A stretch of 63,981 bases of DNA, taken from positions 1-63,981 of IMG/VR virus record IMGVR_UViG_3300014933_000403. One strand, given 5' to 3'. Position 1 is the first letter of the stretch. Each line of letters opens with the position of its first letter. Under the pieces are notes generated by a model that worked only from the letters and a program-made list of their open reading frames with translations, searched no databases and was not told the origin of the DNA. Positions 5,421 through 24,817 of this stretch are shown piece after piece. The stretch is from a virus. The translations under genes were made by a program, and so were the position numbers.

Positions 5421-6120
5421 TTTCCCACACCCGGTAAACCCAAAATCAAACCCAAAGATCGTAGCACTCATCGGTCTACATGGTGCAATAGGTTATGGCC
5501 TTTACTGGTCAGTAATTGAAATGCTGCTCGCAGAGCCTGCAGGTAGGCTACAGTTGAAGCCCTGGCTTTACAGTGCCCTGACATCACTCATGAATCTTCC
5601 TAAGGAATACGATATGGAAGGATTCGTTTCAGATTGTATCAACACGGTGGAGTTATTCGCTACCGATGGTGATTACTTCTGGGATGAAACTATACAACCG
5701 GCAGCATTCAAAAAGAAACCTGCTGCTAGGGTAGCCACCATAAAATCCAACCCGGAAATACAGAAGAAATGGGCTGAACTAGAGAAAATACTCCCTGCCA
5801 ATATCACAGAGCGTTGGGTAATCATTAAAACGTTTATCACAGATGAAAAGCCTGACTTCATAGAACCATACGCCACCGCATGGAACATCTTCGCATCCTC
5901 CCAAAAGCTTGCCCAGATAGAAGCCATCAACGAGACCAGGAAGAAGAAATTCGCCACCAGGATCAAGGATGAATTATTCAGCTTTTATGCTATCTTGGAG
6001 GTGATCAAAAAGGATGAATTCTACCGAGGGTTGAAACAGGGGCAAGATTGGAAGGTGACATGGGATCACATATTCGAGAATGAAATGAATTACCTCAAAA
6101 TACTTGAAAAAAGAAAATGA
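5410..6120 (+). CDS. Replisome organiser-like protein (DUF4373/Lin1244-type N terminus)
   Basis: A 236-residue protein. Residues 1-50 match the pattern of the phage replisome-organiser N-terminal domain: F-H-P, DPKI-like NPKIVALIGLHGAIGYGLYW, then a hydrophobic helix and VIEMLL. These proteins bind the phage origin and load helicase. The DnaB gene lies two genes downstream, which fits. The last codon overlaps the methyltransferase start (ATGA). An origin inside or near this gene is possible but not identified. Confidence 0.6.
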   Translation: MESSFPHPVNPKSNPKIVALIGLHGAIGYGLYWSVIEMLLAEPAGRLQLKPWLYSALTSLMNLPKEYDMEGFVSDCINTVELFATDGDYFWDETIQPAAFKKKPAARVATIKSNPEIQKKWAELEKILPANITERWVIIKTFITDEKPDFIEPYATAWNIFASSQKLAQIEAINETRKKKFATRIKDELFSFYAILEVIKKDEFYRGLKQGQDWKVTWDHIFENEMNYLKILEKRK

Positions 6121-8243
6121 CCAAAGACATCGTACTAGTAGAGTTGTTCAGCGTCATTGGTGGCTTTCACTTAGGTCTCAAGAACGCAGGATTTAATATT
6201 ACCCATTGTCTCTTCTCAGAGATTGATGATCACGCTATTGCTAACTATAAATACAATTTCCCAGATGCAGAACACATTGGATCTGTTCTAGATGTAAGAG
6301 GAGAGGATATTAGAGAAATGTTTCCTGATTCAACCATCGTTGTTACCTTTGGTTTTCCTTGTCAGGATTTAAGTATAGCAGGTAAAAGGCTAGGTTTTAA
6401 AGGTGCTAGAAGTAGCCTTTTTTACCATGCTGCTAGGATTGTCAGACAAATTCAGGCAGATTTGTATATATGGGAAAACGTGCCAGGACTAATGTCTTCG
6501 AATGGCGGTGATGATATCAAGGCTGTTTTCGAGGAGATGTATTTAAGTGGGTATATTTTTGATTTTGAAGAATTAAATACTAACTGGGTTCTCCCTCAGA
6601 ACCGAAGTAGGATTTACTCGGTTGGATTCAACATAAAAAATCTACAAAAATGTTTAATAGAAACAGATGGTCACCCGAAGAACTTGAATCATTACGTCAA
6701 AATTATACAAGGCGTTCTTCTAACGAAGTGTCCAGACTACTTAACAGAAGTCCCAAGTCAGTTCGATCAAAAGCGGAAAGACTTGGCATTAGATTACTGG
6801 AAAACAAGGGAGCAGGGTCAGTACCTTGGACAGAATCTGAAAGACAAATTCTTAGGGATAATACAAACTCTCCCATTAGAGAAATTGCAAAGCTTATACC
6901 TGCACATACAATCATTGCAATTAAAGCACAACGATCAAAACTTAAATACTTCCCAGACCAAACCCCAAAACATAATAGTAACGGATACAATGTCAGATAC
7001 GGAACAGATGAGTCTGGGAAAAGAAAGTCGTTCATGGTACATAGAGATGTTATCGAACAATCTATCGGCAGAAAACTACTTAGTAGTGAGCAGGTTCATC
7101 ATATTGATTTCAATAAACGAAACAACGAAGAACCAAACCTTTTCTTATGCAGAGATGCAGAGGAACATAGAACTATTCATCATACACTTAACTATCTTGT
7201 TTCCGAACTGCTGGGAAGAGGCGTTATATGGTTTGATAGAGAAGAAAAAAAATATAAACTATGCCCAGAAAAATAGAGTAAGCAAAAGAAACCTTGCATC
7301 AACTGATGATAGTAATGCCGTTCGATTTCCCTCTCCCAATGAAACGACAAATGAACCTGTCGGATATTCTGGAGCCGGATGCTTCGGAGGATTACTTCCT
7401 ATCACCGAAGACGATTGCGGGTCTCTTGAAGGGTCAAGCGCCTCCACAACTGTTAGAACAATCACAGCAGGAGGGAACTCAGCCGGGATGCATTCCAACA
7501 TGACGCTGATCATTAATGACGAAGGTGAATTTAAAGATCGTGATATGGCAACTGCGATTGATTCCAATTACCATAAAGGAACAGACTCGCATCGGCAGAG
7601 GTCTATGGTTAAAATTGAAGCCACCACCTTATTCGACCAAGACACCATGCCTACCATGCCTACCATGCGTAAAGGCGGTGCGATGACGATGACCAAAAAG
7701 CACAACTGGGATGTTGTAAAAATAAAATCAGCAACAAAGGATGGTTATGAAGAAGCAACAGTAGGAGATTCTATAAATCTGTCCATCCCCAACTCTGCCA
7801 CCCGAAGGGGCAGAGTTGGGGATGGACAGGCGAACACATTGGATACTCAATCAAACCAGGCAGTGATTGTAGCAAGCAGAGGTCGCGGAGAAAATAATGA
7901 GCAGACGCTAGAACCGAACACCACGAACACCACGAACACCATTACAGGAGTGCAGAAAGACAATATGGTCATGCTTGACACCAGACAGAAAAGCCATGAT
8001 CAAAAATCTGGCAAATCGGGCATCAGAGAATACACAGATGAATCACCAACCATCAGTTCAACTATACAGAAGGATGTACCGAAAGTGATTTCTCAGGAAG
8101 ACAACATGATGCTGCGTGATGGCAGAGACAACAGGTCTTGTCTTAAATCTGGAAGACAGACTGAACTGGGAATGGAAGGCGTATCAATCAGAAGGCTGAC
8201 AGAGGTGGAGTGTGAAAGATTACAGGGATTCCCTGATAATTAG
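6117..8243 (+). CDS. C5 cytosine DNA methyltransferase, amber-interrupted
   Basis: Transfers methyl groups from SAM to cytosine C5 in phage DNA. Motif I is at residues 7-21, the catalytic PCQ at 81-83 (Cys82), ENV at 120-122, the NRSR motif near 165, and the end motif RRLTEVECERLQGFPD at the C terminus. The ORF ends at TAG 8241, where the family normally has Trp (GFPDNW). The same frame then continues for 60 conserved codons to 8426. Codons about 178-386 overlap an HNH nuclease gene in another frame, yet this frame stays open. A 21-bp perfect inverted repeat lies at 7779-7829. It may be inactive unless the amber is read through. Confidence 0.8.
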   Translation: MTKDIVLVELFSVIGGFHLGLKNAGFNITHCLFSEIDDHAIANYKYNFPDAEHIGSVLDVRGEDIREMFPDSTIVVTFGFPCQDLSIAGKRLGFKGARSSLFYHAARIVRQIQADLYIWENVPGLMSSNGGDDIKAVFEEMYLSGYIFDFEELNTNWVLPQNRSRIYSVGFNIKNLQKCLIETDGHPKNLNHYVKIIQGVLLTKCPDYLTEVPSQFDQKRKDLALDYWKTREQGQYLGQNLKDKFLGIIQTLPLEKLQSLYLHIQSLQLKHNDQNLNTSQTKPQNIIVTDTMSDTEQMSLGKESRSWYIEMLSNNLSAENYLVVSRFIILISINETTKNQTFSYAEMQRNIELFIIHLTILFPNCWEEALYGLIEKKKNINYAQKNRVSKRNLASTDDSNAVRFPSPNETTNEPVGYSGAGCFGGLLPITEDDCGSLEGSSASTTVRTITAGGNSAGMHSNMTLIINDEGEFKDRDMATAIDSNYHKGTDSHRQRSMVKIEATTLFDQDTMPTMPTMRKGGAMTMTKKHNWDVVKIKSATKDGYEEATVGDSINLSIPNSATRRGRVGDGQANTLDTQSNQAVIVASRGRGENNEQTLEPNTTNTTNTITGVQKDNMVMLDTRQKSHDQKSGKSGIREYTDESPTISSTIQKDVPKVISQEDNMMLRDGRDNRSCLKSGRQTELGMEGVSIRRLTEVECERLQGFPDN
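6650..7276 (+). CDS. HNH homing endonuclease nested in the methyltransferase gene
   Basis: A 208-residue protein read in the frame one base before (-1) the methyltransferase frame. Two Myb/SANT-like helix-turn-helix repeats (about residues 5-48 and 58-100, each starting with a W/P-S/T-E-E/S-E pattern) are followed by an HNH module (about 130-180) with VHHIDFNKRNNEEPNLFL and EEHRTIHH. This is a free-standing homing endonuclease layout. It is inserted after the NRSR motif and before the target-recognition part of the methyltransferase. No group I intron core was recognised around it, since the gene fills nearly the whole insert. Confidence 0.8.
   Translation: MFNRNRWSPEELESLRQNYTRRSSNEVSRLLNRSPKSVRSKAERLGIRLLENKGAGSVPWTESERQILRDNTNSPIREIAKLIPAHTIIAIKAQRSKLKYFPDQTPKHNSNGYNVRYGTDESGKRKSFMVHRDVIEQSIGRKLLSSEQVHHIDFNKRNNEEPNLFLCRDAEEHRTIHHTLNYLVSELLGRGVIWFDREEKKYKLCPEK
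7779..7829. repeat. 21-bp perfect inverted repeat inside the methyltransferase gene
   Basis: Arms at 7779-7799 and 7809-7829 are exact reverse complements, separated by 9 nt. The encoded residues (NLS-PNS and RRGRVG) still look like normal phage methyltransferase sequence, so the repeat is superimposed on coding sequence. Its purpose is unknown. Confidence 0.9.
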
Positions 8244-16715: not shown

Positions 16716-17190
16716 GAAATTAGTCGATAAAAGAAACAAGCAGATACATAAGATCGTTCTCTGCATGAGAGACCCGACTATAATGCTGTGCCTAGGTGCT
16801 AACCTCATGAAGGTATGGGATGTTTATGTTGGTATCACCAAGGATCGGGTAAAGCACCCAGTTGATATGATGATGCTTGCATGGGCTGCCAGACACCCAT
16901 ATTTCAAAAAGAAAGCCTTCCAGGAGGCGTTAAAAGAAATCGACCCGTACTTTATACCGAATACCGAACACTACGCAAGCATAAACGCCATGTTGGGTAG
17001 GATGAAGAAGAGAAAGTGGGTCGATCGTGCTGTCTATAAGGGATCACAGACATGGTTTATAACAACAGAGGGTAAGCTATTTCTGATAGATGTGACGAAC
17101 GCTATCAGAAAGCTTACCCTCGAACTGTTGGTTAAGGCCAAAACACCCGAAGGGATGAGATGGCGAAAGTTTAAATCAATGGGCGGTTAG
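16708..17190 (+). CDS. Basic winged-helix-like protein, unknown function
   Basis: A 160-residue, very basic protein with predicted helices and a winged-helix-like C-terminal half (about 88-135, RMKKRKWVDRAVYKGSQTWFITTEGKLFL). It ends the rightward cassette and overlaps a leftward small gene tail to tail by 15 nt. A role as DNA-binding regulator is inferred. Confidence 0.5.
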   Translation: MSKKLVDKRNKQIHKIVLCMRDPTIMLCLGANLMKVWDVYVGITKDRVKHPVDMMMLAWAARHPYFKKKAFQEALKEIDPYFIPNTEHYASINAMLGRMKKRKWVDRAVYKGSQTWFITTEGKLFLIDVTNAIRKLTLELLVKAKTPEGMRWRKFKSMGG

Positions 17191-17280
17191 TGACCGGTAC
17201 ACAACATAACACAAAACCGCGAATGAGAATATCTGGCAGGCGATCTCCCAAAGCTGCCTTTTTTCCTGTTCTTTTTGCAT
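17176..17280 (-). CDS. Very small membrane protein
   Basis: A 34-residue peptide with a charged N terminus (MQKEQEKRQ) and one transmembrane helix (about residues 11-29). It is too small for most gene finders, but the amphipathic start followed by a clean hydrophobic helix suggests a real gene. It is the last gene of the leftward operon. Confidence 0.4.
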   Translation of the reverse strand: MQKEQEKRQLWEIACQIFSFAVLCYVVYRSLTAH

Positions 17281-17309
17281 GACATTAGATTTAAGGTTGG
17301 TTAATAATG

Positions 17310-17630
17310 TTATTCGTAAACGACATCCATCTCAGCTTTCATCTGTTGGATGATCCTCACCACTCCCCACCTGGTCTTACCCAAATGTTCAGCGATAAGC
17401 CTGGCAGAAAGCTTGCCTTCGGTCCGGAAATAATTCTCCCGAACAAATTGACGGTCTTCCTCACTCCACTCACGGGAGTATTCCTTCCTCCAGCCTTCCT
17501 TACGAGCCATGTTCCAAATCTGATCCTTAGTGATCCCGAACTGGGATACTAAATGTTTGATGTCGGTGTCAGGGAAGAGCAGAGACAACTCGGTCTTCTG
17601 CTCTGGTGATAAAATAGGTGTGTTTGCCAT
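17310..17630 (-). CDS. DNA-binding protein with HTH and SANT-like motifs
   Basis: A 106-residue protein with a helix-turn-helix around residues 21-48 (DIKHLVSQFGITKDQIWNMA) and a SANT/Myb-like segment around 55-100 (WSEEDRQFVRENY, then AEHLGKTRWGVVRII). The second part resembles the DNA-binding repeats of the HNH nuclease at 6650. Probably a transcriptional regulator of the leftward block. Confidence 0.6.
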   Translation of the reverse strand: MANTPILSPEQKTELSLLFPDTDIKHLVSQFGITKDQIWNMARKEGWRKEYSREWSEEDRQFVRENYFRTEGKLSARLIAEHLGKTRWGVVRIIQQMKAEMDVVYE

Positions 17631-17658
17631 AGATTAAATTTAATGAGGTTTGTTAATA

Positions 17659-17811
17659 TTACCACCACTTGGTTTTGCAAGAGGAGGCAATGCAGGCTCT
17701 CTGACCTTTGTTGATTTTGGAATAATTCCTCTCAGTAGCACAGGAAGAAAGGAAAGCAATCACGATGATGAGTCCAATCACTAGGATTGTGAAGTCTGGT
17801 GTTTTTTTCAT
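17659..17811 (-). CDS. Small lipoprotein
   Basis: A 50-residue protein with a basic N terminus, a hydrophobic core and a clean lipobox LSSC at about residues 21-24. The mature part is about 27 residues and contains two more cysteines. Phages often use such early small lipoproteins to block receptors or superinfecting phages (for example T5 Llp), but that role is inferred from size, signal and position. Confidence 0.6.
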   Translation of the reverse strand: MKKTPDFTILVIGLIIVIAFLSSCATERNYSKINKGQRACIASSCKTKWW

Positions 17812-17828
17812 GTTGGTTGTTTGTTTGG

Positions 17829-18098
17829 TTAATAATAAACGATGCGTAAGTAGCTGCAATCTTTCCGGTTCATAGCTTTCTGAATCTGTTCTAACTCAGC
17901 CACAACCTCTTCGCCAGGATGCTTGCAGTTAGCCATGGAAATGTTCTCGAGCATTCTAGCTACTGAATAGATATGCTCATGGGTGTCTTCATCATTATCA
18001 GTCCACACTTCTTTCTGTGTTCCGATAAGACATACTGTCTCTGCGGTAATTTGGCTAACATGGATGTCAGCGATTCTCAGGATGTTGTCTAGTTTCAT
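17829..18098 (-). CDS. Small protein downstream of hammerhead ribozyme A
   Basis: An 89-residue protein with helical, acidic character and Cys/His residues (KHPGEEVVAELEQIQKAM). Its ATG lies 19 nt after the predicted cleavage site of the ribozyme at 18112-18163, so its mRNA should carry a 5'-OH end starting UUAACCA. No family recognised. Confidence 0.55.
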   Translation of the reverse strand: MKLDNILRIADIHVSQITAETVCLIGTQKEVWTDNDEDTHEHIYSVARMLENISMANCKHPGEEVVAELEQIQKAMNRKDCSYLRIVYY

Positions 18099-18111
18099 TT
18101 TAAATAATATT

Positions 18112-18163
18112 GGTTAAGACCCTCCGAAGAGGGTTTCGCATATTCAATGCTCGTCAGTTAACC
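18112..18163 (-). ncRNA. Type I hammerhead ribozyme A
   Basis: On the minus strand: stem I GGTTAA (18163-18158), core CTGACGA (18157-18151), stem II GCAT/ATGC with loop TGAAT (18150-18138), core GAAA (18137-18134), stem III CCCTC/GAGGG with a TTCG tetraloop (18133-18120), then TC (18119-18118) and stem I partner TTAACC (18117-18112). All invariant hammerhead residues are present. Cleavage is predicted between 18118 and 18117. It lies between two genes and begins at the stop codon of the upstream one. Confidence 0.93.
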
Positions 18164-18367
18164 TAATTCAGCAACGGTTTCGTTTATTAATTCAATGACA
18201 ATATTGCATGTCCTATAGTCATTATGAATAAAGAACACCTTCTTAGTATCCCTGCATACAATAGCAACTGTTTTACCTTCTGCATCGTCATCATCTGACT
18301 CCCATAAATCTATATGGGTGTAATTTTGGTCATCGGTGTAATCGTTTCTTACTTCGAAAGTTTCCAT
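18158..18367 (-). CDS. Small acidic protein, unknown function
   Basis: A 69-residue acidic beta/alpha protein (IDLWESDDDDAEGKTVAIV). Its stop codon is part of stem I of ribozyme A. Translation to the end of the gene could therefore unfold the ribozyme, which would link translation and self-cleavage. Confidence 0.55.
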   Translation of the reverse strand: METFEVRNDYTDDQNYTHIDLWESDDDDAEGKTVAIVCRDTKKVFFIHNDYRTCNIVIELINETVAELG

Positions 18368-18378
18368 GGTTCGTAGTG

Positions 18379-18684
18379 TTATTGGTTAATAATTGGTTGT
18401 GAGGTTTGTTTATCCCGTGTGTAGGCTGAGATGGTTTCGTATACGCGATTCTCGCAGCCTTGGGGGAGGGTAATTGTGGCAATCCCATTAGAAAAAGAAG
18501 GTTTTACCTTTTCCAGGATCGTATCACCCAATTCTTTTTTAAGGTGGGTGATGAAAATTGCCTGAGCGAATGCCGGATATTTTCCATGATCATTGAGAAC
18601 AATGTGCATGAGAGTCGGTCGGGTGGGGACAACAACCAATGGCTGCTGATCCCAGAATGCGTTGGTGTGGGTGGATGGTTTCAT
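18379..18684 (-). CDS. Small protein, unknown function
   Basis: A 101-residue protein with a likely alpha/beta fold (VVVPTRPTLMHIVLNDHGK, AQAIFITHLKKEL). Its start overlaps the stop of the gene before it (4 nt), so the two are co-translated. No family recognised. Confidence 0.5.
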   Translation of the reverse strand: MKPSTHTNAFWDQQPLVVVPTRPTLMHIVLNDHGKYPAFAQAIFITHLKKELGDTILEKVKPSFSNGIATITLPQGCENRVYETISAYTRDKQTSQPIINQ

Positions 18685-18929
18685 TTGCTAAAGGATTGTG
18701 CAGCGTTAGATAATAAGAGTCCTAAAGCCTCTGCCTGTTCTTTGGTATCACAGTCAGCAACACACAGAACATATTCAGATGACTTACGCAAGTAAACACT
18801 CCAATAAGAATGCTGACCTTCGGCACACATTTCAACGTTGCCTTTGCCGTCATCAAATACAGGGCAGATTTCAACATTATCCCATTGGCGATTAGCGGGT
18901 TGGGGATAGAAATTAAGGTTTGTTTTCAT
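18681..18929 (-). CDS. Small protein, unknown function
   Basis: An 82-residue protein with a beta-hairpin-rich middle (HSYWSVYLRKSSEYVLCVADCD) and a C-terminal helix (TKEQAEALGLLLSNAA). That is an arrangement common in small phage early proteins. The leader CCAACC-ATG follows the previous stop directly. Confidence 0.5.
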   Translation of the reverse strand: MKTNLNFYPQPANRQWDNVEICPVFDDGKGNVEMCAEGQHSYWSVYLRKSSEYVLCVADCDTKEQAEALGLLLSNAAQSFSK

Positions 18930-18935
18930 GGTTGG

Positions 18936-19121
18936 TTATGGGTTTATAGTTCCGTTAGCAATAAGGTCTTGGGCAGTTCTTCCAAACCAACCTTGCAGTT
19001 GGTAGGCAAGACCCGTGTCATGTAAATACTGCCATGCCTCTGTCTGTAATTCCTCAGATGCATCTTCTCCCGGGCCGAATCCTTCGGCAATGGAGGTAGC
19101 TAAGTAGGGTGTCATTATCAT
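18936..19121 (-). CDS. Small protein, unknown function
   Basis: A 61-residue protein. The ATG at 19121 is preferred to an upstream in-frame ATG because it follows the TTAACCAAC leader, and the longer version would translate a structured intergenic segment. The C-terminal half contains an AWQYLHDTG-type helix and a QDLIANGTI turn. Confidence 0.5.
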   Translation of the reverse strand: MIMTPYLATSIAEGFGPGEDASEELQTEAWQYLHDTGLAYQLQGWFGRTAQDLIANGTINP

Positions 19122-19124
19122 GTT

Positions 19125-19195
19125 GGTTAATTTTTTTACCGACAATGCCCCGAACCATTTACGATTCGAGGCTGCCAGGCTACAAGGTGTTAACC
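19125..19195 (-). other. Third GGTTAA/TTAACC-bounded intergenic element
   Basis: A 71-nt gap placed like the two ribozymes. It begins with GGTTAA right after the upstream stop (TGA), ends with TTAACC just before the next ATG, and holds an 8-bp stem (GCCTCGAA with TTCGGGGC, two G-T wobbles). The hammerhead core (CUGANGA and GAAA) is absent, so it is either a decayed copy or another kind of element. Confidence 0.4.
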
Positions 19196-19906
19196 TCACC
19201 TTATCACAAATCCGGTCATATCTTTCTTAGCATCTCCCTTGGCTTTTAAGCCTACCACAACACCTGATGGGTCATAATACCTCAAATCGGTCTCATCGCC
19301 ATTAATTACAGGGAATCCGTTCCAACTAGCAGGAAGTTCATTAAAGACAGCAGCAACATTCCCGCCTACCTTCAATATCTCCAGTGCATCAGCCTCATTA
19401 ACCTCAGAACGGGAGAAGGTAAGCTTGTATGGGGTGTTAAGGTATCTGCGGATATGGTTGGGGTTCTTGGTGTAATCGTAGAACAGGATGTTACGAACAT
19501 ATGGCTGACTCAAGAAATCGTTCCCTGTCTTCCTTTTAAGGATGGCAAGATGGTCAATATCAGATGTGCCATTAAGCCTGATGGCAACCATGGTGTTGGT
19601 CTTCTGTGCATGACGGTGAATAGCTTGTATTTCGATAGCCAACTGAAAGTAGAATTGCTCAATATCTTCAATCCAAAAAAGAGATTTGTTGATCCTGGAC
19701 AACTGCACATTGGAGAAACGACCTCTGCCTGCCGTATACAGACATGACTTGCGGCAGCCTTCAGAAGAGTATGGGCAGAGGTTAAAGCCTCTCAGAGCGG
19801 TCTCTGCCGGTGCCATGTACAGGATAAACGTTTCTAGAGCATTCTTAGCGGTCTTAACATTGGTAGAACCTTTGGAAAGAAGGTTTTTTACAGGTTTGTG
19901 TTGCAT
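19196..19906 (-). CDS. GP88-like protein (Cys-rich phage family)
   Basis: A 236-residue protein downstream of ribozyme B. Residues 41-60 hold a cysteine cluster (CPYSSEGCRKSCLYTAGRG) like that of the phage 'gene product 88' family, followed by a mixed alpha/beta domain. Biochemical role unknown. The ATG at 19906 is chosen because it lies 21 nt after the predicted cleavage site and the longer ORF would run through the ribozyme. Confidence 0.6.
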   Translation of the reverse strand: MQHKPVKNLLSKGSTNVKTAKNALETFILYMAPAETALRGFNLCPYSSEGCRKSCLYTAGRGRFSNVQLSRINKSLFWIEDIEQFYFQLAIEIQAIHRHAQKTNTMVAIRLNGTSDIDHLAILKRKTGNDFLSQPYVRNILFYDYTKNPNHIRRYLNTPYKLTFSRSEVNEADALEILKVGGNVAAVFNELPASWNGFPVINGDETDLRYYDPSGVVVGLKAKGDAKKDMTGFVIR

Positions 19907-19921
19907 GGTAGTAGTTTTTAT

Positions 19922-19993
19922 GGTTAAGACGGGACAGAATCCTAGGGGGAGGATGTCTGCCCGTTTCGCGGATTCACCGCTCATCAGTTAACC
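19922..19993 (-). ncRNA. Type I hammerhead ribozyme B
   Basis: On the minus strand: stem I GGTTAA (19993-19988), core CTGATGA (19987-19981), stem II GCGG/CCGC with loop TGAAT (19980-19968), core GAAA (19967-19964), a long stem III of about 13 bp with two bulges (19963-19930), then TC (19929-19928) and stem I partner TTAACC (19927-19922). Stem II and stem III differ from ribozyme A by compensatory changes, while core, stem I and loop II are identical. Cleavage is predicted between 19928 and 19927. Confidence 0.95.
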
Positions 19994-20592
19994 TAGAGCA
20001 TATTCATTGCTAGTTCATAGATATCAAGGTCATTCTCTTCACAGTAATCGAATGCAGCAGCCATACGCTTATTGTAGATGGCAGCCTGTTCAGCAGAATA
20101 CAAGGTTTCATTGTTTCTCACATCTATGTACTGAGTGAAATCGGTATCAGGATGGAAGCCCAAGCCTATGTAGTCAATACACTCTCTGAGGAAAGCAACA
20201 ACCTCAGCCTGTAGTGTATACTTGGCAAGCATATCAGCCTCCTCAGTATCATAAGCCTCTACAGAGTCATAAGACACCCAACAGAAACAATAACCTTGCA
20301 GAGAGTAGAAGGTCTCACCATTGAATTCTACAGAGTAGCATTCCTCATCTGTGGCAATACCATTGGCGTATGACCTGTTATAAAATTTGTTGGTGTCTGC
20401 ATTGTACACGATGGTGTCCGCATCATAGTCAGCTACCTCTTCATTCGATAGCATCTCAGTCACTACCTTCAGACTGTTCTCATGGTTGAAGTAGGGGACA
20501 TCCCAACCATTCCATAGGTCACCAAATGTGATACCTGCAATAGGTTGTCTGAAATGGTCTAGTGCGAAGAATTTAAGTGTGGGTGTGTTCAT
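19993..20592 (-). CDS. Acidic protein upstream of ribozyme B
   Basis: A 199-residue, Asp/Glu/Tyr-rich protein, with repeated acidic stretches (about residues 50-70 and 185-199). Many small acidic phage proteins inhibit host DNA-binding enzymes, but no specific match is seen. Its last stop base is the first base of ribozyme B. Confidence 0.55.
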   Translation of the reverse strand: MNTPTLKFFALDHFRQPIAGITFGDLWNGWDVPYFNHENSLKVVTEMLSNEEVADYDADTIVYNADTNKFYNRSYANGIATDEECYSVEFNGETFYSLQGYCFCWVSYDSVEAYDTEEADMLAKYTLQAEVVAFLRECIDYIGLGFHPDTDFTQYIDVRNNETLYSAEQAAIYNKRMAAAFDYCEENDLDIYELAMNML

Positions 20593-20627
20593 GATGTGTT
20601 TGGTTTATTGTTAGTAAATAAATGTGA

Positions 20628-20807
20628 TTAATACCCAAGCCAATGGGCAACCTTTGTGAGTGACCAATCTGTAACGTCAACCCAATTGCTAGCGTCTGTG
20701 CTGCTGCCATCAGGATAGAACTGAGTAGCTACCTCGAATGCTAATATTCTGCCGCAGCATTCTTTGGTGTCGATTCCGTGTTGGTGTAATGCGGTAAGTA
20801 AATCCAT
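20628..20807 (-). CDS. Small protein, unknown function
   Basis: A 59-residue protein with a plausible compact fold and a Trp-rich C terminus (NWVDVTDWSLTKVAHWLGY). It has an AACC leader directly before ATG, like its neighbours, and no overlap with the next gene. It was found by reading the gap. Confidence 0.5.
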   Translation of the reverse strand: MDLLTALHQHGIDTKECCGRILAFEVATQFYPDGSSTDASNWVDVTDWSLTKVAHWLGY

Positions 20808-21092
20808 GGTTAAAAGTTTTAATGTGATGCCCTACATCGGGCGATTGTGAGTGCAATATACACAAGAAAACAATAAACACAACAAAACAACAAAGAAATA
20901 TTTTCAGACATGACACAAGTGATTGAAACACATCCAATTGCGGTGTGAAATATTTTTTTCTTTAATGAGTGGTGAATTGTGGCAAATTATAAGCTTTACC
21001 AGTCAGCATAAATTGGCTGTAATGCAGGATCACCGGGCATTTCAGCGGTTTAAAGCCTCTGAGAATCGCACGGATGAGAATGAGTTGGGAGA
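20808..21092. other. Intergenic region, probable leftward leader
   Basis: About 285 nt without a convincing gene. On the minus strand it ends in an A/C-rich leader and contains a small hairpin (GCCC-loop-GGGC, near 20828-20841). No clear TTTG/TAnnTTTG pair was found. A 63-codon plus-strand ORF here starts with TTG and lacks support. Confidence 0.35.
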
Positions 21093-21563
21093 TTATGCAG
21101 CAGTCTTGTTCTGAAGTGCTAGCTGATAGGCATTGATAGCAGCCTCAACCCTATTCCATTTCCATATGGAAGAATCGAATGAGTTGGCATCTGAATAGCC
21201 AAGGAATCGGGCTAATGATTTGCCTTTGAGACCTGTTGCAGCCTTGAATAATGGCAGCCTTGGGCGAGTGTTTAACCTGTGGTGGCAAGTGTATTTGAAG
21301 TATGACTCTAGGGCAGCATTCCTAGCATATGCAACCCTATCCTTCATCACACACCAATCTCTGAAGTCTGCGACCATAGAACGAACATTGGATGGGTAAT
21401 TTGCCCTTATGTACATCTCACCTTTGGAGTTGAGGAATGTCTCAATCCACTTGTATGAGTTGAACTTACTGTACTGTGAGTTGTCCATGTCTATATCTTC
21501 GGGTGATACGACAAAGGTAAATGCATAGCCATATACAGACCAAATTAGCCCTGATGTCAGCAT
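21093..21563 (-). CDS. HTH-like protein, unknown function
   Basis: A 156-residue basic protein. The C-terminal part (SLARFLGYSDANSFDSSIWKWNRV) resembles a helix-turn-helix. A shorter start at 21488 (130 residues) is possible, because the first 25 residues are hydrophobic and atypical. It lies downstream of a 390-nt structured leader. Confidence 0.5.
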   Translation of the reverse strand: MLTSGLIWSVYGYAFTFVVSPEDIDMDNSQYSKFNSYKWIETFLNSKGEMYIRANYPSNVRSMVADFRDWCVMKDRVAYARNAALESYFKYTCHHRLNTRPRLPLFKAATGLKGKSLARFLGYSDANSFDSSIWKWNRVEAAINAYQLALQNKTAA

Positions 21564-21907
21564 CCTGCACCTGATAGCTATCTCTCACACAGAGCGACCG
21601 CAGCAGCCTGTTGCCACATCAGCTTTGCCTCGTTCGATGGTGGGGTAGGGGAGGGGCTGCGACCTCATGACACGATGTCTACTTAACATAATTATAGTTA
21701 TTAGGCTGATTTAGAGCGAGCGATTCCATGCGTCTGAAGTCAGTCTGGGCGATGGTTTCCGATAGCTGAAAAGCGACCCACCCCATGCGGCAGGAGTGCG
21801 TTTGCCCCTGTACCCTGGCGGCCGGTGGATCAGGTATGAACCCCTACTCACAGATTACAGGGTACCCGGGTCGTAATAGAAGGTACCCTCCCACTGACCA
21901 CTGGGCA
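21564..21907. other. GC-rich structured non-coding region
   Basis: About 340 nt without a gene, more GC-rich than its surroundings. Three mutually complementary segments are visible near 21818-21890: GTACCCTG, CAGGGTACC and GGTACCCTC. The middle one can pair with either neighbour (8 bp or 7 bp), which is an attenuator-like layout. It precedes the leftward gene at 21563. No known RNA family was recognised. Confidence 0.45.
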
Positions 21908-21945
21908 TAAAAAAGCCCCCGTAAAGGAGGTCTTTCTGCTCACAG
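21908..21945 (-). terminator. Intrinsic terminator of the leftward gene at 21954
   Basis: On the minus strand AAAGACCTCC pairs with GGGGGCTTTT across a short loop (one mismatch and one bulge) and is followed by a T-run. It lies right after the stop of the 21954-22220 gene. Confidence 0.65.
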
Positions 21946-21953
21946 AAGAAAGC

Positions 21954-22220
21954 TTAATCATCATAATCCCATGGCGATCTATACCCATACTCCCTCACCA
22001 GATCAGCTACAGTCTCCACATACTCAGCCGGTATTTCTCCTTCCTTCAGGTACTTATCGAACCTGGATCTTATTATTCCGGACCCTCTACAGATGCCAGA
22101 TCGGTTTAAAAGCGGCCTTTCTCTTAGCCAGGATGCCAATATCTGACCTTCAGGCTGCTGAATCGGTGGCTCCCATCCTTCTGGAGAACCGTATACCATG
22201 ATCACATGTTGAGTTGCCAT
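21954..22220 (-). CDS. Small HTH-like protein
   Basis: An 88-residue protein. Residues 28-75 (SWLRERPLLNRSGICRGSGI, then FDKYLKEGEIPAEYVETVADLV) resemble a Cro-like fold with a short HTH. It ends a transcription unit with its own terminator. Confidence 0.5.
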   Translation of the reverse strand: MATQHVIMVYGSPEGWEPPIQQPEGQILASWLRERPLLNRSGICRGSGIIRSRFDKYLKEGEIPAEYVETVADLVREYGYRSPWDYDD

Positions 22221-24261: not shown

Positions 24262-24612
24262 ATGCATAACTACAAAAACGTACAAACAGGGCAGGTGATC
24301 TCTGCCACAGACTTTATGTCTTTAACTAAAAGCCGTAATGAATGGGCTGTATCTGATGAGCCGGTTAACGCAAAGGTCGAAACTATTGTTTCCCCCGCCA
24401 CACCTGCGGCAGAATTTCCTGAGTTCCCAGTTAATGAAGACCTGAACCATGATCAACCTACTATTGATCATGTTGTAACAGAAGATGATTTGAAAGATAA
24501 CCCATCACTGGTTGAAGAAGGTGTGCAGGAAGGAGAAACGATTCAGGTACCGGCTCCGGTTATTGAGGATGGTATTCCTGGTACCGAGCCAGAAGTGGAT
24601 CCCGCAGCATAA
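24262..24612 (+). CDS. Acidic protein, unknown function
   Basis: A 116-residue protein with a short basic N terminus and a long acidic, Pro/Val-rich C-terminal half (about residues 45-116), probably disordered. It is the first gene of the rightward unit behind the switch promoter. Function unknown. Confidence 0.55.
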   Translation: MHNYKNVQTGQVISATDFMSLTKSRNEWAVSDEPVNAKVETIVSPATPAAEFPEFPVNEDLNHDQPTIDHVVTEDDLKDNPSLVEEGVQEGETIQVPAPVIEDGIPGTEPEVDPAA

Positions 24613-24746: not shown

Positions 24747-24816
24747 GGGGAGGTAACTCAGGGGCAGAGTAGCAGCTTAGGCTTGTTAGTCGGTGGTTCG
24801 AATCCACCCCTCTCCA
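24747..24816 (+). tRNA. tRNA-like gene, probable anticodon UAG (Leu?)
   Basis: A cloverleaf can be drawn: acceptor GGGGAGG (24747-24753) with CCTCTCC (24809-24815), D arm ACTC/GAGT, anticodon arm AGCAG/TTGTT with loop CTTAGGC, T arm GGTGG/CCACC with loop TTCGAAT, discriminator A at 24816. The loop gives anticodon UAG (codon CUA). It lacks position 26, has two G-T pairs in the anticodon stem and lacks the long variable arm of leucine tRNAs, so isotype and function are uncertain. Confidence 0.65.
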
Positions 24817-24817
24817 C

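Follow-up and report, generated by a model that had tools for sequence, protein, structure and literature searches.

A putative type I hammerhead ribozyme at a phage gene junction and its relatives at stop/start junctions in other phage sequences

Introduction

Does a phage operon carry a self-cleaving RNA at the junction of two of its genes, and what would such a cut do to the messages on either side? The question is raised by a short stretch, here termed copy B, on the minus strand of the IMG/VR virus record IMGVR_UViG_3300014933_000403. This 63,981-base record, analysed in full and referred to as the window, comes from a tailed phage whose genes encode terminase, portal, DnaB helicase, and methyltransferase proteins. 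An initial annotation made from the letters of the DNA described copy B as a type I hammerhead ribozyme in a leftward operon, reported a second copy in the same operon, and regarded self-cleaving elements between phage genes as uncommon. Here we examined the two copies, searched for their relatives, and weighed explanations for their position.

Results

Read from 19993 to 19922 on the minus strand, copy B runs GGTTAA CTGATGA GCGG TGAAT CCGC GAAA CGGGCAGACATCCTCCCCCTAGGATTCTGTCCCG TC^TTAACC, in which the predicted cut (^) lies at the U-C cleavage site, between 19928 and 19927. Stem I (6 bp) and stem II (4 bp) are fully paired and stem III contains two single-base bulges (U and C). Stem I is open and stems II and III are closed, which gives the type I topology in both the sequence and the model structure. 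The CUGANGA ... GAAA core and the UH cleavage site are present in copies A and B alike. The upstream TAG stop codon (19995–19993) ends on the first G of copy B, and 21 nt, TTAACCATAAAAACTACTACC, separate the predicted cut from the next ATG at 19906. The complete core with three stems, the cleavage site, the overlap with the stop codon, and the distance to the ATG were all as first described. The coordinates of the features are collected in Table 1.

Table 1 Features at the two ribozyme-bearing junctions of the leftward operon.
Feature	Position	Strand	Basis
Copy B, putative type I hammerhead ribozyme, stem I to stem I	19922..19993	-	Sequence; covariance model R1; fold
Copy B stem I, 5' strand GGTTAA	19988..19993	-	Sequence; pairs with 19927-19922
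Copy B catalytic core CUGAUGA	19981..19987	-	Sequence; CUGANGA invariant in 244 family members among the matches listed
Copy B stem II GCGG/CCGC, loop UGAAU	19968..19980	-	Sequence; stem II covaries; loop fits UNANU
Copy B core GAAA	19964..19967	-	Sequence
Copy B stem III hairpin, 34 nt; predicted 3' end of upstream cleavage product	19930..19963	-	Sequence and fold
Copy B stem I, 3' strand UUAACC; downstream mRNA predicted to start here with a 5'-OH	19922..19927	-	Sequence
199-aa gene immediately upstream of copy B, weak match to phrog_9945	19993..20592	-	ORF list; PHROG 9.2e-9; TAG stop overlaps ribozyme
Gene directly downstream of copy B, 236 aa, GP88 family (PF17338, phrog_1617), ATG at 19906	19196..19906	-	Pfam 5.6e-34, PHROG 8.2e-66
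Copy A, putative type I hammerhead ribozyme; predicted cut 18118/18117	18113..18162	-	R1 75.9 bits (copy A in training set); sequence
Gene upstream of copy A, 69 aa; TAA stop (18160-18158) inside copy A stem I	18158..18367	-	ORF list; sequence
Gene downstream of copy A, 89 aa, without family match (PHROG, Pfam)	17829..18098	-	ORF list

The fold of copy B had a z-score of −3.84, and none of 200 shuffled sequences was equally stable. The hammerhead register was at −28.3 kcal/mol, compared to −28.9 kcal/mol for the minimum free energy structure, which shifts stem III by one base. A competing fold pairs the core GAUG with CGUC and is better by 0.6 kcal/mol under a nested nearest-neighbour model that includes no tertiary contacts. 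The copy B hairpin is followed by TCTTAACC and by no T-run, unlike an intrinsic terminator, which combines a G+C-rich hairpin with a T-run. On the minus strand, no terminator-like or promoter-like site was detected at either the copy A or the copy B junction.

Copy A lies ~1.8 kb beyond copy B in the same operon, confirming the reported second copy. Its TTAACC begins at 18117, and its predicted cut is 19 nt from the ATG of the downstream gene. The two copies have the same stem I and loop II, while stems II and III differ in sequence yet stay paired. No third hammerhead copy was found when the 64-kb window was scanned with R1 (a covariance model introduced below), and a pattern match at 24353 (+) was dropped for want of an R1 match. 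A third GGTTAA...TTAACC pair at 19195–19125 (−) is very stable (z −4.1, 0 of 200 shuffles); a TGA stop immediately precedes it and the next ATG closely follows. It contains no hammerhead core and matched no Rfam family nor R1; it could be another structured junction element. TTAACC also stands just before the ATG in several ribozyme-less leaders between 17300 and 20830 on this strand (20813, 19130, 18389, 17832, and 17304). Elsewhere in the window, a single tRNA-Leu gene (24747–24817, +) marks the border of the leftward and rightward gene blocks. A 708-aa methyltransferase-like ORF (6117–8243, +) has a long unmatched middle, possibly an insertion, because its best PHROG match covers only 252 profile positions and spans the whole protein.

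The initial annotation had proposed the Rfam type I model as a check and the lack of a covariance-model hit as evidence against a ribozyme. In Rfam, copy B (86 nt searched) had no match at the gathering cut-off nor at E<10. RF00163 (Hammerhead_1; gathering cut-off 34 bits) matched neither copy. RF03152 (RAGATH-1-hammerhead; cut-off 56.3 bits) gave copy A 19.7 bits (E 0.12) over model positions 26–77 only, and did not match copy B. We attribute the Rfam miss of copy B to poor model coverage of such elements, since Rfam reported only one of about 55, as counted by structural scan, in ten other ribozyme-rich loci. One family member, in locus L113, passed the RF00163 cut-off at 35.7 bits. We built a dedicated covariance model, R1, from 42 equal-length phage sequences, with copy A included and copy B excluded. 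R1 found copy B at 42.3 bits (E 2.6e-7, 64 kb searched). The anticipated adverse outcome was thus literally obtained with Rfam, and the dedicated model does recognize the element. Annotation by Rfam models overlooks nearly all such phage elements. A BLASTN search of positions 17000–22000 against phage records returned no match.

The first search pattern, derived from copies A and B, matched at least 118 stretches in viral contigs. In total, at least 281 distinct elements were collected from viral contigs, compared to none in reversed sequence. Across 2.4 Mb, a strict structural scan yielded 312 matches and none in reversed sequence; the 312 matches are not a frequency, because most scanned loci had been fetched by ribozyme patterns. 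Among the 95 distinct pattern matches listed, in which the bases of stem II were left unspecified, stem II was fully paired in 93, with about 5 expected, and an exact stem I partner was at the right place in 75, compared to 0 with shuffled flanks. In the 42-sequence alignment, 99.9% of cells pair, double-sided changes occur in 12 of 16 pairs, and 165 compensatory cells were counted against 38.5 after shuffling, with covariation in all three stems. Since the alignment members had been selected for pairing, it is the unconditioned stem II test that carries weight. At the level of sequence, the covariation across all three stems is decisive support for a putative hammerhead family.

In the structural scan, stem I was 6 bp long in 266 of the 275 matches listed and stem II was 4 bp long in 256 of them. 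Loop II was mostly UNANU among the matches listed, most often UGAAU; this loop belonged to the first search pattern, and two further scans left loop II unspecified. The base 5' of stem I, which was not specified by any search pattern, was A in all 244 canonical members among the matches listed, and the two bases 3' of stem I were A in 97% and 81% of those members. The invariant 5' A, the 3' AA, and the UNANU loop are suggestive of a tertiary contact between stem I and loop II. Stem III varied in length; of the 163 listed with 4-nt loops, 103 had GNRA (66) or UNCG (37) loops, and the median hairpin energy was −8.7 kcal/mol.

The position of the elements relative to genes was strongly constrained. 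In 224 of the 270 matches listed, an ORF of 40 codons or more began with an ATG 15–35 nt after the cut, compared to 10% at random positions, and the median distance from cut to ATG was 22 nt for those with an ATG within 120 nt. Upstream ORFs ended between −12 and +20 of the ribozyme start in 221 of 267 (matches listed), compared to 11% in controls. Among the matches listed, the favoured stop positions were +3 (the stem I TAA, 68 cases), +7 (the core UGA, 37), −2 (32), and +17 (the loop II UGA, 14), and 177 of 281 elements had stops in all three frames within their first 24 nt. Full records showed up to ten copies per operon, on one strand and within 4–5 kb. Loci L088, L095, and L066 (records G015, G017, and G011) contained eight to ten hammerheads per 3–5 kb block, nearly one per gene. 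The downstream proteins of the matches listed comprised 204 non-redundant sequences with a median length of 82 aa and were mostly orphans; the few recognized ones included anti-restriction proteins, DUF932, GP88, and methyltransferases. Examination of the downstream protein families revealed no encoded mobility protein accompanying the ribozyme.

When 84,980 species genomes of bacteria and archaea were scanned, the core pattern turned up at four places, of which two were full elements, and a model search of 395 genomes of one phylum matched only the starting genome itself. Since these species-genome scans were nearly empty, we conclude that the family resides mainly in phages and not in sequenced chromosomes. 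Cultured carriers span four different phage groups and include Agrobacterium phage OLIVR1, Flavobacterium phage elemoB, Cellulophaga phage phi19:3, and the Pelagibacter phages HTVC019P, HTVC131P, and Jormungand; the pelagiphages among these have an integrase gene. In Pelagibacter phage loci L347–L349 and L352, family hammerheads lie near MarR regulator and integrase genes, and in three of these four loci stem I is GCAAAA/TTTTGC and is immediately followed by an ATG. Streptomyces phage Paedore and the faecal record MT836360 were rejected as carriers, as their matches on inspection contained no hammerhead core. An RtcB ligase was also rejected as a partner of the ribozyme, being present in 1 of 21 ribozyme-bearing records; the lone RtcB RNA ligase gene (record G026, locus L185, 32961–34061, −) could in principle rejoin hammerhead ends.

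A search by the terminase found only one other contig. None of 80 loci with GP88 homologues, which were fetched by protein and of which about two dozen were 60–70% identical, held the ribozyme by model. Copy B is therefore not a conserved control element of the GP88 gene, and we rejected such control. Only this protein-fetched set was used as evidence on orthologous junctions, because most loci had been fetched by their own ribozymes, which biases a comparison by identity bins.

Discussion

Similar elements at stop/start junctions in hundreds of phage sequences make this a real, widespread, and largely uncatalogued candidate RNA-processing element, and not a rarity. Judged by its sequence, copy B is a real hammerhead candidate, ordinary in kind and unusual in organization, and of a kind commoner than first claimed. 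We put the probability at about 0.7 that copy B functions as a type I hammerhead and splits a polycistronic mRNA co-transcriptionally into single-gene mRNAs; cleavage itself, its efficiency in the host, and any effect on stability or translation we infer. Copy B would cut the leftward transcript at the gene junction as it is being made, and copy A would do likewise. The upstream mRNA would carry the stable stem III hairpin and a 2',3'-cyclic phosphate at its 3' end, and the GP88-family mRNA would begin with a 5'-OH and a 21-nt leader ahead of its ATG. One polycistronic RNA would then become messages that decay and are translated separately. In bacterial mRNA decay, a 3' hairpin should slow 3' exonucleases and a 5'-OH should avoid the decay that depends on a 5'-monophosphate. 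The precise spacing from cut to ATG, together with the stable stem III loops, indicates selection on the ends of the products.

Stop codons within or beside the ribozyme suggest that ribosomes may gate the cut. A terminating ribosome would cover stem I and the core, and cleavage would occur only when the upstream gene is untranslated. A ribosome paused at the upstream stop would, from its known footprint size, cover the core, and the stop overlaps or abuts the ribozyme at most junctions; such overlap may merely reflect the compactness of phage genomes. Gating would refine the processing explanation and is not exclusive with it, and we regard it as a doubtful addition. Equally doubtful is the broader proposal of a phage-wide device, in which stop/start-embedded hammerheads with a leader of set length and ribosome-gated cuts would yield monocistronic 5'-OH mRNAs according to translation.

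An unlikely explanation, which has several observations on its side, is a selfish or neutral self-cleaving element. It would arise at or spread among the junctions of phage genes and would be tolerated owing to its place at gene ends, its stop codons, and the functional leader that remains after the cut. The family is not bound to one gene, as the diversity of its listed, mostly orphan downstream proteins shows, and it was absent from all 80 GP88-homologue loci. Most of the elements listed carry the three-frame stops noted above, and stops within the ribozyme itself (+3, +7, and +17) terminate many of the upstream genes. However, copies within a phage differ in stems II and III with pairing kept, so they are not recent transpositions, and the downstream families revealed no accompanying mobility protein. 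The exact cut-to-ATG spacing and the stable stem III loops also argue for selection on the product ends.

A hairpin that merely resembles a hammerhead, acting as a terminator, an RNase III site, or a translational spacer, would fit the strength of stem III and the missing Rfam match of copy B. It is very improbable given a core invariant in the 244 members among the matches listed while the stems covary, a hairpin with neither a T-run nor a terminator call, and the contrast of 312 matches with 0 in the reversed-sequence control. Least credible is RNA-level recombination, in which type I products sharing stem I would rejoin in trans and shuffle phage messages: many copies in a phage share the UUAACC stem I, and the geometry of type I would permit ligation (a point raised in PMC3088659), but stem I similarity is only marginally higher within loci than between them (mean distance 0.18 vs. 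0.24), ribozyme-less leaders are not enriched in the local stem I variant, and the authors of PMC3088659 sought spliced or circular products and found none. We rejected trans-ligation, and with it a shared leader motif, on the stem I comparison and the lack of enrichment in the leaders; TTAACC itself was modestly commoner in ribozyme-less leaders (4.0% vs. 2.5%).

The processing reading has precedents. Clustered prophage hammerheads cleave in vitro, and the Agrobacterium ones also in E. coli (Perreault 2011, PMC3088659); for the clusters of Agrobacterium, Azorhizobium, and Clostridium scindens, the suggested role is to divide long phage RNA into mRNAs of gene length (PMC3088659). These reports and the many matches in viral contigs do not bear out the initial view of such elements as uncommon between phage genes. 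The role of phage and bacterial hammerheads is still called an open question (PMC6155905). The present family offers a sharp handle on it, with set codon spacing and up to ten ribozymes per operon, and its cultured carriers would allow cleavage, mRNA ends, and fitness to be measured.

The hammerhead kind is already known; the Rfam-invisible, stop/start-embedded subfamily looks new among open-access papers, although an earlier description is possible. It shares with the type I hammerheads of RF00163 the core, the junction of three stems, the open stem I, and the stem lengths (6 bp for stem I, 4 bp for stem II), and differs in its sequence profile, UNANU loop II, invariant A 5' of stem I, and stop/start placement. 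RAGATH-1-hammerhead (RF03152) is the best weak Rfam match of copy A, far below the cut-off. The theta ribozymes of gut phages are likewise phage-encoded self-cleaving RNAs (self-cleavage is predicted for the present family); they have an HDV-like fold and are linked to suppressor tRNAs rather than to gene junctions (PMC10879173). HHphage of the haloviruses HF1 and HF2 also sits before a start codon in a virus, in this case a lytic one, at a distance of 13 nt, and the 5' end of a transcript maps to its cut site; it is a structural variant in archaeal viruses for which no array of copies was described (PMC3088659). The prophage clusters likewise place several hammerheads on either side of individual genes or small groups of genes, among them an anti-restriction gene (PMC3088659). 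Those clusters are prophage-borne and comprise types I to III, whereas the present family, as searched, is all type I, is found in full in only two places among the 84,980 species genomes, and keeps a set spacing to stop and start codons.
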